This document shows positions 4,664 to 49,689 of a stretch of 64,000 nt of DNA, piece after piece. The position numbers and the translations under genes were made by a program. The stretch is from Bacteroidia bacterium (GTDB taxonomy: Bacteria; Bacteroidota; Ignavibacteria; SZUA-365), in contig JAOSJT010000001.1 in NCBI GenBank assembly GCA_027493955.1, forward strand, positions 3,583,131-3,647,130, given 5' to 3'. Numbering within the stretch: the stretch's first letter is position 1; every line of letters begins with the position of its first letter. The notes under the pieces were generated by a model. It did not search any database, was not told where the DNA came from, and saw only the letters and a list, made by a program, of their open reading frames with translations.

Positions 4664-6526
4664 ATGGACAGACAAGCAGTCATCGGTTTCGTGCTCATTG
4701 CAGTGATTTTCATCGTCTGGATGTTCTACATGGCGCCGGAACCCCAGCCGCAACAACCCAAAGCAGAGCAGCCATCCGCTGCCGCGCAGGAACAACAGGT
4801 TCAGAAGGATACGAACGTAAGTCTGCCTTCATCGACAGATACGGCGGTTGATACCCTTGCACCGAGCATACCCCAACAGCGCTTTGGCCGATGGTTCGCG
4901 GAAACTTCCGACGGTGAGAAGCGAAGCATCGTGGTAGAAACAGAAAAATACATTGCAGAAATATCCACCCATGGCGGGTCTATCGCGCGATGGACACTGA
5001 AAGGATTCAACACCTGGGATGGACGTCCGCTGCAGTTGATTGACTGGAAACGCAGCAGCGATTTCAACCTCGTGTTCGCATCTTCCGACGGTCGATACAT
5101 AGATACAAAAGATCTGTATTTCCAGATAAGTACGGAAAAAAACCACTCTCGCGCCAAGCTCGCTGATAATGATTCCCTTGTCGTTGAAGCCCGCTTACCT
5201 GTGAAGGGCGACAGCGCCGCCATAGTCAAGAGATACGTTTTTCGAGGAAGCGGTTATGCGATCGACCTCGATGTCGAAATGCACAACATGGCTGATATCA
5301 TCGCGAATTATGAATACCAGCTCACTGTCCACTCACCGGCTTTGACGGAAGCGAACAGCGTGGAGGAAGCGAGTTTCGCCGAAGCCCACGCGTTCGTCGA
5401 CGGCAAGCGCGATTACCTGGATGCCACAAGCGAATCCGAAAAGGAGAAGCTCAACAAAGAGGGAGAAGCGCTCTGGATGTCGGTAAACAACAAATACTTT
5501 ACCCATGCGGTGATGGCCCGGGATGGCTTCGTCGGAACGGGAGTGTATCTCGAAGGGATCATGATACCGCAGAGGAATAAAGGTCAACGGGAACTCTATG
5601 AGGCGGCGTTCAGAGTCAAGTACAGGGGAAGGGAAGTAGAACGGTCCACGTTTTCGCTGTATCTCGGACCTATGGATTACGATGAGCTCAAATCGCAATA
5701 CGAGGGTCTCGAACAGACGCTCAGTCTTGGATGGGCCTTCATCGTGCGACCCTTCTCCGAATACCTGGTCATGCCGTTATTCTCTTTTCTCCACGGCTTT
5801 ATTCCCAACTTTGGCTGGGTTATCATTATTTTCTCCATCCTCATCAAGATTCTCCTGCACCCGCTCACGAAAACCAGCATGAAATCCATGCAGCGTATGC
5901 AAAAGCTGCAGCCGATGATGAACGAGCTTCGCGAGAAGTACAAAGATGATCAGCAGAAGCAGAACATGGAGATCATGAAGCTCTATAAAGAGTACGGAGT
6001 TAATCCCGCGGGTGGATGTCTTCCTATGCTACTGCAGTTCCCTATTCTTTTTGCCCTCTTCAGTATTTTCCGGTCAACCATTGACCTCCGTCAGGAGCCC
6101 TTCATGCTCTGGATAACGGATCTCTCCGGTCCGGACATTATGTTCAGATTGCCGTTCGAATTACCACTTCTCGGCATGAGCTTCGTCAGCGGACTCGCAC
6201 TTCTTATGTCCATCACCATGTTCATTCAACAGAAGATGAGCATAAAGGATCCACGACAGAAAGCCATGGTGTACATGATGCCTGTGATGTTCTGGATTCT
6301 ATTTAATTCCTTCCCCTCCGGCTTGAACCTCTATTATTTCATGTTCAATCTTCTGTCCATCGGTCAACAGTGGTACATCAATAAAAAACATGAAAATGAA
6401 CCGCTGGTAAAAGTCGCACCAAAGAATGGGAAGAATAAACTGAGCTGGACCGAACGTGCCATGGCAAATATGCAGGAAAAGGCGAAGCAACAAGGAAAGA
6501 GCTCAAAATCAGGGAAGAAGTTCTGA
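4664..6526 (+). CDS. yidC: Membrane protein insertase YidC
   Basis: Inner-membrane insertase acting alone or with SecYEG. The 620-aa product begins at MDRQAVIGFVLIAVIF, a typical first TM anchor. A Pro/Gln-rich linker and a periplasmic beta-sandwich domain (about residues 60-350) follow, then the conserved five-TM insertase core from about residue 355. That core contains the cytoplasmic hairpin (MQRMQKLQPMMNELREKYKDD) and GVNPAGGCLPMLLQFPI. The C-terminus is Lys-rich, as is usual for ribosome contact. The ATG at 4664 was chosen over an upstream in-frame ATG that overlaps yidD. The gene ends in a strong intrinsic terminator. Confidence 0.97.
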   Translation: MDRQAVIGFVLIAVIFIVWMFYMAPEPQPQQPKAEQPSAAAQEQQVQKDTNVSLPSSTDTAVDTLAPSIPQQRFGRWFAETSDGEKRSIVVETEKYIAEISTHGGSIARWTLKGFNTWDGRPLQLIDWKRSSDFNLVFASSDGRYIDTKDLYFQISTEKNHSRAKLADNDSLVVEARLPVKGDSAAIVKRYVFRGSGYAIDLDVEMHNMADIIANYEYQLTVHSPALTEANSVEEASFAEAHAFVDGKRDYLDATSESEKEKLNKEGEALWMSVNNKYFTHAVMARDGFVGTGVYLEGIMIPQRNKGQRELYEAAFRVKYRGREVERSTFSLYLGPMDYDELKSQYEGLEQTLSLGWAFIVRPFSEYLVMPLFSFLHGFIPNFGWVIIIFSILIKILLHPLTKTSMKSMQRMQKLQPMMNELREKYKDDQQKQNMEIMKLYKEYGVNPAGGCLPMLLQFPILFALFSIFRSTIDLRQEPFMLWITDLSGPDIMFRLPFELPLLGMSFVSGLALLMSITMFIQQKMSIKDPRQKAMVYMMPVMFWILFNSFPSGLNLYYFMFNLLSIGQQWYINKKHENEPLVKVAPKNGKNKLSWTERAMANMQEKAKQQGKSSKSGKKF

Positions 6527-39695: not shown

Positions 39696-40399
39696 ATCAC
39701 GCCAAGGGCGATGAGCACGAAGGCCGGGCCGTTGAGCACGGCGTGAATGATGACGCCAATCCAGGAATTCGCGCGCCGCTGCACGATGAAGGGCAGAATG
39801 AACAGTATCGGCAGCAGCGTGAGCAGCAATTGCCAGCCGAAGGCGACGTGAAACACCGTCCAACCCAGCGCGTGGTGCAGCCAGGCGTGACTGCCGATGC
39901 CCTCCTCCATTCGGGGCAGCATGACGCCGCGCCACAGAATTTCCTCTCCCATGATATTGAGCAGCCAGAACGGCAGCCAGGCGAGGAGAATCCAGTAGCG
40001 GCCGGGCCCCAGCACCTCGAAGCGCATGAACGGCGGTTGCGTATGCACCGCGCCGGCGAAGGCCTCGATCAGCTTCATGATCACCATGCTGAGCGTTCCG
40101 ATGGCAAGCACCCCGCCGAGCGTCCACATCCAGTCCTCGCGGTTCATCGCCCTGAAGCGCAGCCGCTCCCGCCAGATGGACGGACGAAGCGGGCCTTCGC
40201 GTTCGAGCAGCACCCAGGCCGCAATCAGCAATGGGAGAAACACGCCGAGCCCCGCGCACAGAAACCACGACACAATGATCTCGATACCCGCCGCCTCGCT
40301 GAGCCAGGGAATAAACAACTGCGTATGCAGCAGCAGCGCCGCGGCGGCGATGATGAAGATGACGCGGGATTGGGAAATGGACATGGGAGGGAGAGACAT
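39692..40399 (-). CDS. CPBP-family intramembrane glutamic/metalloprotease
   Basis: 235 aa, about six to eight TM segments. The CAAX protease/bacteriocin-processing motifs are present: EEILWRG in LLNIMGEEILWRGVML, then HVAFGW and HAVLNGPA. It cleaves proteins within the inner membrane; bacterial members act in stress, peptide processing or immunity. The ATG at 40399 (MSLPPMSISQS) or 40384 is likely; the frame is open to 40753 but similarity stops here. The first 81 codons and 66 bp upstream are duplicated at 42.7-43.0 kb. Confidence 0.87.
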   Translation of the reverse strand: MSLPPMSISQSRVIFIIAAAALLLHTQLFIPWLSEAAGIEIIVSWFLCAGLGVFLPLLIAAWVLLEREGPLRPSIWRERLRFRAMNREDWMWTLGGVLAIGTLSMVIMKLIEAFAGAVHTQPPFMRFEVLGPGRYWILLAWLPFWLLNIMGEEILWRGVMLPRMEEGIGSHAWLHHALGWTVFHVAFGWQLLLTLLPILFILPFIVQRRANSWIGVIIHAVLNGPAFVLIALGVI

Positions 40400-40465
40400 G
40401 CGATATCCGTGTTGATGACCGATAGGGGAAAAATACGAAGCAACGGGCAGAGTGCGGTATGCACG
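40156..40465. repeat. 310-bp direct repeat, copy 1 (inside and upstream of CPBP gene)
   Basis: Identical to 42685-42994 except for two adjacent bases (CAACGG versus CGGCGG near 40443). Copy 1 covers codons 1-81 of the intact CPBP gene plus 66 bp of upstream DNA, so it is presumably the original. The centres are 2529 bp apart. Confidence 0.95.
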
Positions 40466-42577: not shown

Positions 42578-42604
42578 GGTGAGCCGAATAAGAAGTAGTA
42601 ATTG

Positions 42605-42928
42605 TCAAATGACGGGACCGTCGACCCCAATCGGTGGTCCCGTTGTAAGTGAAACGGGAAGCAGTAAGCAAGAATCGAGTTTTGAGCGCAGCCGCTCCCG
42701 CCAGATGGACGGACGAAGCGGGCCTTCGCGTTCGAGCAGCACCCAGGCCGCAATCAGCAATGGGAGAAACACGCCGAGCCCCGCGCACAGAAACCACGAC
42801 ACAATGATCTCGATACCCGCCGCCTCGCTGAGCCAGGGAATAAACAACTGCGTATGCAGCAGCAGCGCCGCGGCGGCGATGATGAAGATGACGCGGGATT
42901 GGGAAATGGACATGGGAGGGAGAGACAT
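42605..42928 (-). pseudogene. Truncated second copy of the CPBP protease gene
   Basis: Codons 1-81 match the intact CPBP gene exactly from the ATG at 42928. After 42685 the sequence switches to unrelated DNA, adding about 26 missense codons (SKLDSCLLLPV) before a stop. It lacks the EEILWRG and His motifs, so it cannot be an active protease, though a membrane peptide could still be made. Confidence 0.85.
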
Positions 42929-42994
42929 GCGATATCCGTGTTGATGACCGATAGGGGAAAAATACGAAGCGGCGGGCAGAGTGCGGTATGCACG
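42685..42994. repeat. 310-bp direct repeat, copy 2
   Basis: 308 of 310 bases identical to 40156-40465, same orientation. The flanking bases on both sides are unrelated to those of copy 1. No target-site duplication or transposase is visible. Confidence 0.95.
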
Positions 42995-45607: not shown

Positions 45608-45645
45608 AATAATTCTGCAAATCTCTTTCACAGTTCTATAACACC
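45608..45645 (+). promoter_or_regulatory. Putative operator A, shared with the copZ-copA unit
   Basis: 38-bp element with AATAATT, TGCAA, TTTCAC, TTCT and TAACACC in fixed spacing; 30 of 38 positions equal those of 47051-47088. It lies 59 bp upstream of the outer-membrane protein ATG. Candidate binding site for the HMA-AraC regulator. Confidence 0.65.
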
Positions 45646-45704
45646 CGGCTGAACTCCGGGTGTCATCTTTGCATGAAACCATTCATATCCTTATGGAGGC
45701 TATC

Positions 45705-47015
45705 ATGCAAACATTTCTGTATATACTTCTGCTCTCGTTGTTCACAACCACCCTGCTGCACGCGCAGCACGATCATCATGCGCACCAGAAACAGAAAAGC
45801 GCAATCGACTCAACATCAGGCAGCAAAGCGCAGTCTGATGAATTATCTCACAATCCTGTGTTTTCAGAAGGCTCCGGCAGCAGTTGGATGCCCGAAAGCT
45901 CTGTAGTCCCGATGAAGATGTTTCAGCTCGGCGAATGGATGGCCATGATTCACGGGTCGGTGTCGCTGCGCTTTACCCGGCAGGGAGGCCCTCGCGGCGA
46001 GTCCGCGTTCAGCGCGCCGAATTGGTTCATGGCATCTGTGCGCAGACCGACGAGCGATAACGGTACGTTGATATTCCGAAGCATGCTCAGTCTCGACCGA
46101 TTCACGGAAGGCGGCGACGGCTATCCCTTGCTGCTGCAATCAGGAGAATCCTGGAAAGGCGAACATCTGGTTGATCGGCAGCACCCGCACGACTTCTTTT
46201 CGGAACTCTCCGCTCTGTACAATCATCGACTGACAAAGGGTCTGAGCGCTTTTGTGTATCTCGGCTATCCCGGAGAGCCGGCATTGGGTCCTCCGGCATT
46301 CATGCATCGCGCTTCCGCCGGATTCAATCCGGATGCACCGATCAGTCATCACTGGCAGGATGCCACGCATGTGAGTTTCGGAGTACTCACCGGTGGACTT
46401 GTCTGGGATCGCTTGAAACTGGAACTGTCGGCATTCAACGGAAGGGAGCCGAACGAAGAGCGATTCGGTTTCGATACCCCCCGATTTACTTCGCGAAGCA
46501 TTCGTTTCACAGTCAATCCGGTGCGGCAGTTGTCAATGCAGGCCTCAGTCGGTGCGCTGCGCGATCCGGAGAATAACGGCGTTGACGTGACGCGGAGCTC
46601 TGCGTCGCTTATGTATGCCCAGGCTCTATCAGGTGCCGGGTATTTCGAATCCGCGGTTATATGGGGACAGAATAACGATAGCCACACCGGTGTGACCGGG
46701 AGTCTTGTGCTCGAAGCGTCGCTCTATTTCTCGAAGTATGCCGTGCATGGACGCGCGGAAATGGTGGATAAAATCCGTCACGAGCTTTCGATTAGCGAGA
46801 ACCCGGAAGGAAAGGAACGCATCCGCCAATTTTCACTTGGTCTGTCAAGGAGCCTGATCGATATCGCGGGAATGAATGCCAGAATCGGCGCACAGGGCAC
46901 GCTCTACACACTTTCTCCGGATATGCAGAAGTACTACGGGGCGAACCCTGTGTCATTCCAGTTGTACCTGACCATATCACCTGCAAGCTCGTTGCAGAAA
47001 GCGGCACAGGAATGA
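45705..47015 (+). CDS. Copper-locus outer-membrane-type protein, His-rich N-terminus
   Basis: 436 aa. Signal peptide (LYILLLSLFTTTLLHAQ) then a metal-binding-looking HDHHAHQKQK segment. The body is strand-rich with aromatic-terminated strands (GSVSLRFTRQG, SLYFSKYAVHGRAEMVD), as in outer-membrane barrels, and contains the motif RQHPHDFFSELSALY. I recall RQHPHD-containing proteins from other bacterial copper/heavy-metal clusters, where their role is undefined. GGAGG lies 6 bp before the ATG. Putative operator A sits upstream, so copper induction is likely. It lies just before copZ. Confidence 0.8.
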   Translation: MQTFLYILLLSLFTTTLLHAQHDHHAHQKQKSAIDSTSGSKAQSDELSHNPVFSEGSGSSWMPESSVVPMKMFQLGEWMAMIHGSVSLRFTRQGGPRGESAFSAPNWFMASVRRPTSDNGTLIFRSMLSLDRFTEGGDGYPLLLQSGESWKGEHLVDRQHPHDFFSELSALYNHRLTKGLSAFVYLGYPGEPALGPPAFMHRASAGFNPDAPISHHWQDATHVSFGVLTGGLVWDRLKLELSAFNGREPNEERFGFDTPRFTSRSIRFTVNPVRQLSMQASVGALRDPENNGVDVTRSSASLMYAQALSGAGYFESAVIWGQNNDSHTGVTGSLVLEASLYFSKYAVHGRAEMVDKIRHELSISENPEGKERIRQFSLGLSRSLIDIAGMNARIGAQGTLYTLSPDMQKYYGANPVSFQLYLTISPASSLQKAAQE

Positions 47016-47050
47016 TGCTCATGCGGCAATCACTGCTGTCAAGCTGCGTG

Positions 47051-47088
47051 AATAATTGTGCAACACATTTTCACCATTCTGTAACACC
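47051..47088 (+). promoter_or_regulatory. Putative operator B upstream of copZ-copA
   Basis: Matches operator A at 30 of 38 positions with no gaps, 73 bp before the copZ ATG. The conserved blocks are AATAATT, TGCAA, TTTCAC, TTCT and TAACACC. The rest of the two intergenic regions is dissimilar, which argues for selection rather than recent duplication. Confidence 0.65.
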
Positions 47089-47161
47089 TCTGCACGATGG
47101 ATCAGTTAGCTTACACACAGGAAATACAGTAACAACTCAACAAGCGACGAAAGGCAATACC

Positions 47162-47416
47162 ATGAAATCAATCACAGTGAACATACACGGCATGACATGC
47201 AATCACTGCATCATGAGCATCCGGAAGGAATTGGCCAAGGTTCCGGGTGTGCTCGTGGATGAGGTGACAATCGGACACGCGGCGCTGCGTATCAATCCCG
47301 CTATCGCAGGAGAAGAGGAAATTCGACGAGCGGTTGAAGCGGCAGGCTACAGCGTACTTGAAATCAATGAAGAAAACCAGGACAGCCCCGGTCATGGAAA
47401 GGAAATACGGAAATGA
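47162..47416 (+). CDS. CopZ-like copper chaperone (single HMA domain)
   Basis: 84 aa. One ferredoxin-like HMA domain with MTCNHC in [21 protein letters not shown], and [12 protein letters not shown] at the end. It carries Cu(I) in the cytosol and hands it to the adjacent CopA. AAAGG lies 9 bp before the ATG at 47162. The frame is open 50 codons further up, but that part includes the putative operator. It overlaps copA by 4 nt (ATGA), so the two are made together. Confidence 0.88.
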
Positions 47417-49689
47417 ATACCAACGAAACAACAAGCACGGTTCCCGCCACGTACACATTGCCGGTAGAAGGAATGACCTGCGCGAGTTGTGTTGTGCGCG
47501 TTGAAAAAGCCATCGGGCAGCTCCCTGGAGTCGAATCCGCAAGCGTGAATCTCGCAACGGAAAAAGTCAGCTTCTCCTTCGATCCCGACGTTACAGATCT
47601 ACCCGCCATCGCTACGGCGGTAGAGGCAGCCGGGTACACCCTGATAACTCCCAGGGAGACGGAGCCGCATCATATCGTCGACATCGAGCACAAAGGAGCG
47701 GCGTCGGATTCCGATCCACAGGCTGCAGCCTATGTCAAATTGAAGCGGGATTTGAAACTCAGTGCGGTTCTTTCAGTGCCCGTCATGCTCATAAGCATGG
47801 TGAGCATGTCCCCATGGTTCATGAACGCCGTGCCCGTCGGAATGCAGGAGATCAACACTTTTCTGCTGATTGCGACCAGCGTGGTGATGTTCGGACCGGG
47901 GAAGAGATTCTTCAGCATTGCCTCGCGACTGGCGCGGCATGGATCGGCGGATATGAACAGTCTTGTGGCCATCGGAACGGGCACGGCATACGTGTTCAGC
48001 GCCATCGTCACCCTCTTTCCGCACTGGCTGCCGATCGAGAATCCGATGGAGCATATCTACTTCGACACCGCGTCGACCATTATCACCCTGATTCTGCTTG
48101 GCCGGCTGATGGAGGCACGGGCGAAGCGCAAGACGACGGACGCGATGCGCACGCTGCTCGGGCTGCAGCCGAAAATCGCGCACGTCAAACGTGGCGATGC
48201 TATTAACGATGTGCCGCTTCGCGAGGTCCGGCAGGGTGACGTGGTGCTTGTCAGGCCGGGTGAACATATCCCGGTGGACGGCCTGATCGTGGCAGGGACA
48301 AGCGCGGTGAACGAAGCGATGATCACCGGCGAAAGCATGCCTGTTGAAAAACGTGCGGGCGATACCGTGACGGGCGGCACCGTGAACTCCAATGGAAGCC
48401 TTGAAGTTCAGGCGACGGCGATTGGCGAGAGAAGCGTCATCGCTCAAATCGTCCGGCTTGTCGAAGAAGCGCAGGGCTCGAAAGCACCGATTCAGCTTTT
48501 GGCCGACAAGATAGCCGGTGTTTTCGTCCCGGTTGTGCTCGGGATATCGCTGCTCACATTTGCCGGATGGTATTTCATCGGCGGCGTTCCCGTCACAGTG
48601 GCGATGATCAATTTCATCGCCGTGCTGATCATCGCCTGCCCCTGCGCACTCGGGCTTGCAACTCCGACCGCCATTATGGTTGGAACCGGATCCGGTGCTT
48701 TGAGAGGTATTCTGATAAAAAATGCGGAGAGTCTTGAACGCGCCCACAACATTAACATTGTGGTCCTGGACAAAACCGGAACGGTGACCACGGGTTCCCC
48801 TTCGGTTACTGCGGTATCACTGTTCGGCGAGATGAATGAAGATTCGCTGCTCTCGCTCGTGGCATCGGTTGAGGCAAGGTCGGAACATCCCATTGCACAG
48901 GCAATTGTCGAGTACGCGAAACAGAAGAAAATCGATCTCCTGCCAATTGACAGCTTCCAGTCATATAGCGGGCTTGGTCTGACAGCTGTCGCGGGCGACC
49001 ATACCGTGATTATCGGCAACGCAGCATTCATGAAGGACTGGGTCATATCTACCGAAGCCGCTGAGGCCGAAGCGCAAGCCATCGCAACTCGTGCCGCGAC
49101 GGCCGTGCATATTGCCATAGATGGCGTAATTGCGGGACTGATTGCCGTCGCGGACACCATTAAGCCGACTTCCCGACAGGCTGTTGCGCAACTGCGTGAA
49201 ATCGACATTGAGGTCATTATGATCACTGGTGATAATCAACAAACCGCCGAGGCCATCGCGCGGGAAGCCGGAATTGATCGCGTGATCGCCGGAGTTCTCC
49301 CGGGAGGGAAAGCCGATGAGATCCGCAAGCTTCAGCGCGAAGGCGCAGTGATTGCGATGGTTGGCGACGGCATCAATGATGCTCCCGCTCTGGCGCAGGC
49401 GGACGTCGGTATTGCCATGGGCAACGGCACCGCCGTCGCCATGGAAACCGCCGATATCACGCTGATGCGCAGCGATCTGATCGGAATCGGTGAGGCGATA
49501 CGGCTCTCGCGTGCAACCGTGCGTACGATCAAGCAGAATCTCTTCTGGGCGTTCATCTACAACATAGTCGGTATTCCCATCGCCGCGTTTGGCTTGCTGA
49601 ATCCCATGTACGCCGCCGCCGCGATGGCAATAAGTTCGGTGAGCGTGGTATCGAACTCGCTGCGTTTGCGACGGGCGGCGATAGGTTGA
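47413..49689 (+). CDS. copA: Copper-exporting P1B-type ATPase
   Basis: 758 aa. One N-terminal HMA domain (GMTCASC, Cys23/Cys26). Eight TM helices, with the transport motif CPC at 409-411 in [16 protein letters not shown]. Phosphorylation site Asp453 (DKTGTVTTG), the HP motif of P1B pumps in SEHPIAQAI, and [16 protein letters not shown] are present. The last TM pair ([36 protein letters not shown]) fits Cu(I) specificity of the P1B-1 group. It moves Cu(I) from cytosol to periplasm. Last gene of the unit; a strong hairpin follows. Confidence 0.96.

Follow-up and report, generated by a model that had tools for sequence, protein, structure and literature searches.

The window, by which we mean the whole 64-kb stretch of DNA analysed, carries on one strand a gene for a regulator of the AraC type, a gene for an outer-membrane porin-like beta-barrel (OMP) and the copper genes copZ and copA. 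A 38-bp element is found twice among them, once ahead of the OMP gene and once ahead of copZ-copA (Table 1).

Table 1. Genes, candidate operator sites and predicted promoter features at the copper locus of the window
Feature	Position	Strand	Evidence or remarks
HMA-AraC regulator, 195 aa	44975-45562	+	N-terminal copper-chaperone-like domain (MVCPRCI), C-terminal AraC-type DNA-binding domain
Candidate operator site 1, AATAATTCTGCAAATCTCTTTCACAGTTCTATAACACC	45608-45645	+	Upstream of OMP gene (ATG 45705)
Putative half-site cores, site 1	45616-45621 (TGCAAA), 45637-45642 (TATAAC)	+	Comparison of loci
Putative -7 box CATCTTTG, OMP promoter	45664-45671	+	27 bp past half-site 2 start; predicted transcription start ~45676
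OMP, 436 aa, His-rich N-terminus QHDHHAHQ	45705-47015	+	AlphaFold, Foldseek
Candidate operator site 2, AATAATTGTGCAACACATTTTCACCATTCTGTAACACC	47051-47088	+	Upstream of copZ-copA (copZ ATG 47162)
Putative half-site cores, site 2	47059-47064 (TGCAAC), 47080-47085 (TGTAAC)	+	Comparison of loci
Putative -7 box TAGCTTAC, copZ-copA promoter	47107-47114	+	Predicted transcription start ~47119
copZ, HMA copper chaperone	47162-47416	+	Pfam HMA, E 4e-10
copA, Cu(I) P-type ATPase	47413-49689	+	TIGR01511, 592 bits (cut-off 397); 4-bp overlap with copZ

The C-terminal part of the regulator matches Pfam HTH_18 (E 1.1e-14) as well as HTH_AraC and thus has the two helix-turn-helix motifs of the AraC type. In the AlphaFold model (mean pLDDT 86.7) this part resembles the DNA-binding domains of AraC, MarA and AdpA by Foldseek, and the N-terminal part resembles the Cu(I) chaperones CopZ (2qif) and HAH1 (1fee), with a ferredoxin-like fold and a CxxC loop. 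The first 70 residues include the motif MVCxRCI, which does not vary among 17 orthologues, and a search against PDB sequences matched this region to the HMA domain 3fry (E 0.007). The HMA assignment is therefore made from the predicted fold, the PDB sequence match and the CxxC motif, as Pfam HMA (PF00403) gave no match at E ≤ 0.001. Because fold and motif agree, we retain the name HMA-AraC under which the first-pass annotation had described the protein. The regulator shares its N-terminal fold and M-x-C-x-x-C loop with the CopZ/Atx1 chaperones but differs from them in being fused to a DNA-binding domain and in falling short of the Pfam HMA threshold. The N-terminal cupin domain that serves AraC proper for sensing and dimerization is absent, its place being taken by the copper-chaperone-like fold, and there was no Pfam match to the CsoR domain (Trns_repr_metal, PF02583).

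The OMP had no match in Pfam or NCBIfam and a PDB sequence search gave no name either, so its fold was predicted. The AlphaFold model (mean pLDDT 70) is a beta-barrel whose Foldseek matches are porins of the OprP/OmpF type (best E 3e-10). PcoB and CopB are outer-membrane copper proteins with which the OMP may be compared: it is likewise an outer-membrane barrel linked to copper, and its homologues have a Met/His-rich N-terminal stretch, but it lacks a Pfam or NCBIfam family and its predicted fold is that of OprP/OmpF-type porins.

Rarity and anatomy of the shared element

The first-pass annotation had reported 30 ungapped matches in 38 positions between the two sites, which end 59 and 73 bp ahead of the ATG codons, and recomputation gave the same values. 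In 3000 dinucleotide shuffles of both intergenic regions the best ungapped 38-mer match averaged 19.5 (SD 1.1) with a maximum of 25, and the runner-up match to either site in the whole window was 23/38. When the complete 5.24-Mb genome was searched with the 38-bp consensus, allowing up to three mismatches, only sites 1 and 2 were recovered and the reversed-pattern control gave none; a stricter half-site pattern likewise returned these two sites only. Since the consensus is confined to them genome-wide, the possibility that the element occurs at random positions, which had been named as the outcome that would speak against a regulatory site, does not apply.

The blocks of identity first noticed within the element (among them TGCAA and TAACACC) are real, but a finer structure underlies them. 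In each site the half-site AATTnTRYAAC occurs twice in direct orientation, with starts exactly 21 bp (two helical turns) apart, and TGCAA and (G/A)TAAC are the cores of the two half-sites. Nearly all orthologues of the regulator found in relatives have the element in the DNA around them, and comparison of these loci defines the half-site as a core TRYAAC preceded by AATTn, and the pair is spaced by 21 bp in 18/20 loci, where no spacing exceeded four loci in shuffles. Both sites of the window are followed by a -7 box of the Bacteroidota type (TAnnTTTG), which begins 27 bp downstream of the first base of the second core. When all offsets of NAnnTTTG were tried in 60 further independent loci, the offset of 27 was found in 40/60 and any other in at most one. 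A matrix was trained on 20 sites from the regulator loci of the window and its relatives; on leave-one-out, the designated site ranked first in 15/20 loci, the two window sites being counted as ranks 1 and 2. Sixty sites outside the training set give the approximate consensus AAATyyTRYAAmTCTTTyCCAAAATTnTRTAACA-N20-TAnCTTTG.

In AraC-regulated promoters the direct half-sites I1 and I2 lie two helical turns apart with the proximal one overlapping the -35 region, and activators of the AraC/MarA type contact RNA polymerase from such a promoter-proximal site. The element shows this arrangement of AraC/XylS operators, namely direct half-sites about two turns apart and adjacent to a promoter. Since the flavobacterial -7 box spans -12 to -5 relative to transcription starts (PMC9723704), half-site 2 would lie at about -39 to -34. 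This placement, together with the lack of a recognisable -33 box, fits an AraC-type activator in contact with RNA polymerase.

Three extra matches in the genome to the half-site pattern plus -7 box with one mismatch were rejected as chance, because the reversed-pattern control gave six and two of the three fall within coding frames (the remaining one is intergenic). Strict-pattern matches in relatives (L066, L067 and L068) were left out of the counts, as they are isolated or else touch or overlap a coding frame. Elsewhere in the genome (L060, G000:C1:600342-600395) there is a perfect repeat, TGTAAC-N15-TGTAAC, that lacks a proper -7 box. It points away from a superoxide dismutase gene that starts ~80 bp off, and by the control it is at chance level. 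Site 1 has in addition a perfect 8-bp inverted repeat (ACACCCGG/CCGGGTGT, 45641-45663) that occupies the gap from half-site 2 to the -7 box. It was seen neither at site 2 nor in the aligned sites of relatives, and may terminate transcription of the regulator gene or serve as a second operator.

Distribution of the element and the HMA-AraC regulator

The copA loci of 29 related genomes, 10 with the CxxC regulator and 19 without it, were compared. The operator precedes copA in 10/10 genomes with the regulator and in 0/19 of the others (Fisher p 5e-8), with scores of at least 28.6 bits in the former and at most 3.8 bits in the latter; the matrix included the ten sites themselves, and with each left out in turn they still scored at least 17.0 against 3.8 for the best non-carrier. 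The contrast is also present inside single families (f1, f11 and f14). In one genome (L032) an unrelated gene separates the regulator from copZ, and the element remains with copZ. In three genomes of the window's own family (f1) from which the CxxC regulator is missing, copA has a CsoR gene as its direct neighbour (G002:C96, G005:C56 and G006:C1), and no member of the CsoR family (PF02583) was found in the genome of the window. That CsoR adjoins copA where the CxxC regulator is missing suggests replacement of one copper regulator by another.

In the genome of the window the element is found neither at the other copZ-copA pair, copZ2-copA2 (L218, G000:C1:3073498-3075693, at 3.07 Mb of the contig), nor at a third P-type ATPase at 4.77 Mb. 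As the operator is missing there, the copZ2-copA2 pair is probably controlled otherwise, and by the sites recovered the regulon in this genome appears to consist of the OMP and copZ-copA units only. The copper regulon proposed in the first-pass annotation is hence supported by the placement of sites before copper genes and by their tracking of the regulator, and it looks small here, with two operons.

OMP homologues are rare (14/395 genomes of the phylum sample), and most have His/Met-rich N-termini. In two genomes (L039 and L043) the homologue follows an HMA-MauE gene in one operon, and a single operator site precedes the latter gene. Among 13 further loci with an OMP homologue an HMA-AraC gene is nearby in six, and in five of these (L175, L176, L182, L183 and L184) a site above 14 bits, the weakest being 14.9 in L182, lies upstream of neighbouring genes. 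The association of OMP and regulator is thus not peculiar to the window, since homologues elsewhere are linked to the same regulator.

Genome contigs were scanned and gave at least 576 relatives of the regulator, and the best 80 were kept, nearly all of them titled Bacteroidota or Ignavibacteriota. At these best 80 of at least 576 loci the 20-site matrix found a strong site on the plus strand in 60/80 and on the minus strand in 4/80 (Wilcoxon p 1.6e-12), and 19/80 had no strong site in the DNA examined. A CopA or CopZ match lies within 450 bp downstream of 38/61 strong sites, versus 5% of random positions, and many of the remaining strong sites precede ArsP-HMA permeases, HMA-MauE proteins or small CxxC proteins. 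Across the phylum the element is therefore seen before copA, copZ and other HMA genes, even kilobases from the regulator.

A sister clade (L046, L047, L049, L051, L052 and L053) has regulators with MVSxRCK in place of MVCxRCI. Its operator is closely similar (GTGAATnaTGTAAC...TGTAAyGC) and precedes non-copper genes such as that of a YceI-like protein, and L051 alone has four sites of this type. The operator by itself is consequently no proof of copper control, since a clade lacking the first Cys uses a very similar one at non-copper genes. In a further genome (L054, G042:C217) four near-identical copies of the operator and promoter stand in tandem, ~125-180 bp apart, at 5609-6055 on the minus strand, and adjoin two degenerate copies of the regulator.

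Proposed control of the two units and the alternatives

We propose, with considerable confidence, that the shared element serves the neighbouring HMA-AraC regulator as its operator and that the copper form of this protein activates both units. The first-pass annotation had taken the element for the likely binding site of this regulator, and the AraC-type architecture, its exclusivity within the genome, the co-occurrence with the regulator at copA (10/10 versus 0/19), the conserved recurrence before copper genes and the linkage to OMP homologues all argue, at the level of sequence, for that assignment. Direct binding, Cu(I) as the ligand, and activation rather than repression are what we infer from this pattern. 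Two regulator molecules would be placed on one face of the DNA, one per direct half-site, with the promoter-proximal half-site near the usual -33 contact of the sigma factor and with constant spacing to the TAnnTTTG -7 box. Cytosolic Cu(I) would load the N-terminal HMA domain at its CxxC motif, and the copper form would then bind both operators and recruit RNA polymerase. Expression of the OMP gene and of the copZ-copA export operon would in this way be switched on together.

Similarity of the two elements could also arise if both were strong housekeeping promoters that share a sigma-factor consensus, and the -7 box of the phylum sigma factor does follow each at a fixed distance. Such promoters would be expected to recur many times, however, whereas there are only two copies in 5.24 Mb; moreover, the element is missing before copA in genomes without the regulator and a half-site overlaps the would-be -33 element, which makes this explanation highly improbable. 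Recent duplication of one promoter segment, in place of constraint by a regulator, would be in keeping with two sites on the same strand, less than 1.5 kb apart, that match over 38 bp. We regard it as very unlikely, as the likeness does not extend past the element and falls on positions that are conserved among 60 sites from other genomes, and the OMP homologues of L039 and L043 lie in one operon behind a single site; duplication may account for the origin of the two sites but not for their conservation.

The element might instead be bound by a different, unlinked regulator. Among relatives, however, the element and the CxxC regulator co-occur perfectly, also in the contrasts within single families, and half-sites and spacing suit an AraC-type protein, which leaves hardly any room for this. 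A small but appreciable chance is left that HMA-AraC binds the element and mainly represses, or that it senses another soft metal (Zn, Ag or Au) or general envelope stress: proteins of the AraC family can act as repressors, metals other than copper can be bound by HMA domains, and in the SxxC sister clade the same type of operator stands before non-copper genes. Against repression, half-site 2 would lie at about -39 to -34, where it suits an activator, and no -33 box is recognisable; against another signal, copper is favoured by the repeated association with copA, copZ and His/Met-rich outer-membrane proteins and by the alternation with CsoR beside copA within the same family.

Compared with characterised AraC/XylS activators (E. 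coli AraC at araI1-I2, MarA/SoxS), the proposed system has the same C-terminal DNA-binding domain and the same two direct half-sites, the proximal one over the -35 region, but its sensor would be a copper-chaperone-like HMA domain of ~70 aa rather than the cupin domain of AraC and its promoter is of the Bacteroidota TAnnTTTG type. It has the same apparent job as CueR, CsoR and CopY, cytosolic control of copZ-copA, although these belong to other protein families and use palindromic operators, unlike the direct repeat found here. Judged by sequence, the operator is of the AraC-family type, its regulator has a copper-chaperone-like domain as sensor, and the system is used widely in Bacteroidota. 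We further lean, with less assurance, towards HMA-AraC being a widespread one-component cytosolic Cu(I) activator of Bacteroidota in place of CueR or CsoR, acting through a module of an AAATTnTRYAAC direct repeat at 21 bp with TAnnTTTG at a fixed distance; the sister clade, minus the first metal-binding Cys, would have kept this operator grammar and re-aimed it at envelope genes.

Cytosolic copper sensing in Bacteroidota has so far been poorly assigned. A 2024 study of a flavobacterium genome described relatives of MerR and CopY that lack copper-binding residues and pointed to ArsR-type candidates, with no mention of AraC proteins (PMC11213822). A published description of an HMA-AraC regulator or its operator was not found in the open-access literature. 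Because the site precedes copper-export genes wherever the regulator occurs among the related genomes tested, a plausible and unnamed copper sensor of Bacteroidota has become testable. Element and regulator together offer a concrete answer that comprises an exact operator and a target set and can be predicted to hold for many of the phylum's members. They also connect a so far uncharacterised barrel of the outer membrane with the handling of copper.

Apart from the copper locus, open reading frames at ~40026-40464 and 42579-42993 of the window share identical stretches of peptide, which points to duplication of a few hundred bases of DNA beside a CAAX-protease-like gene.
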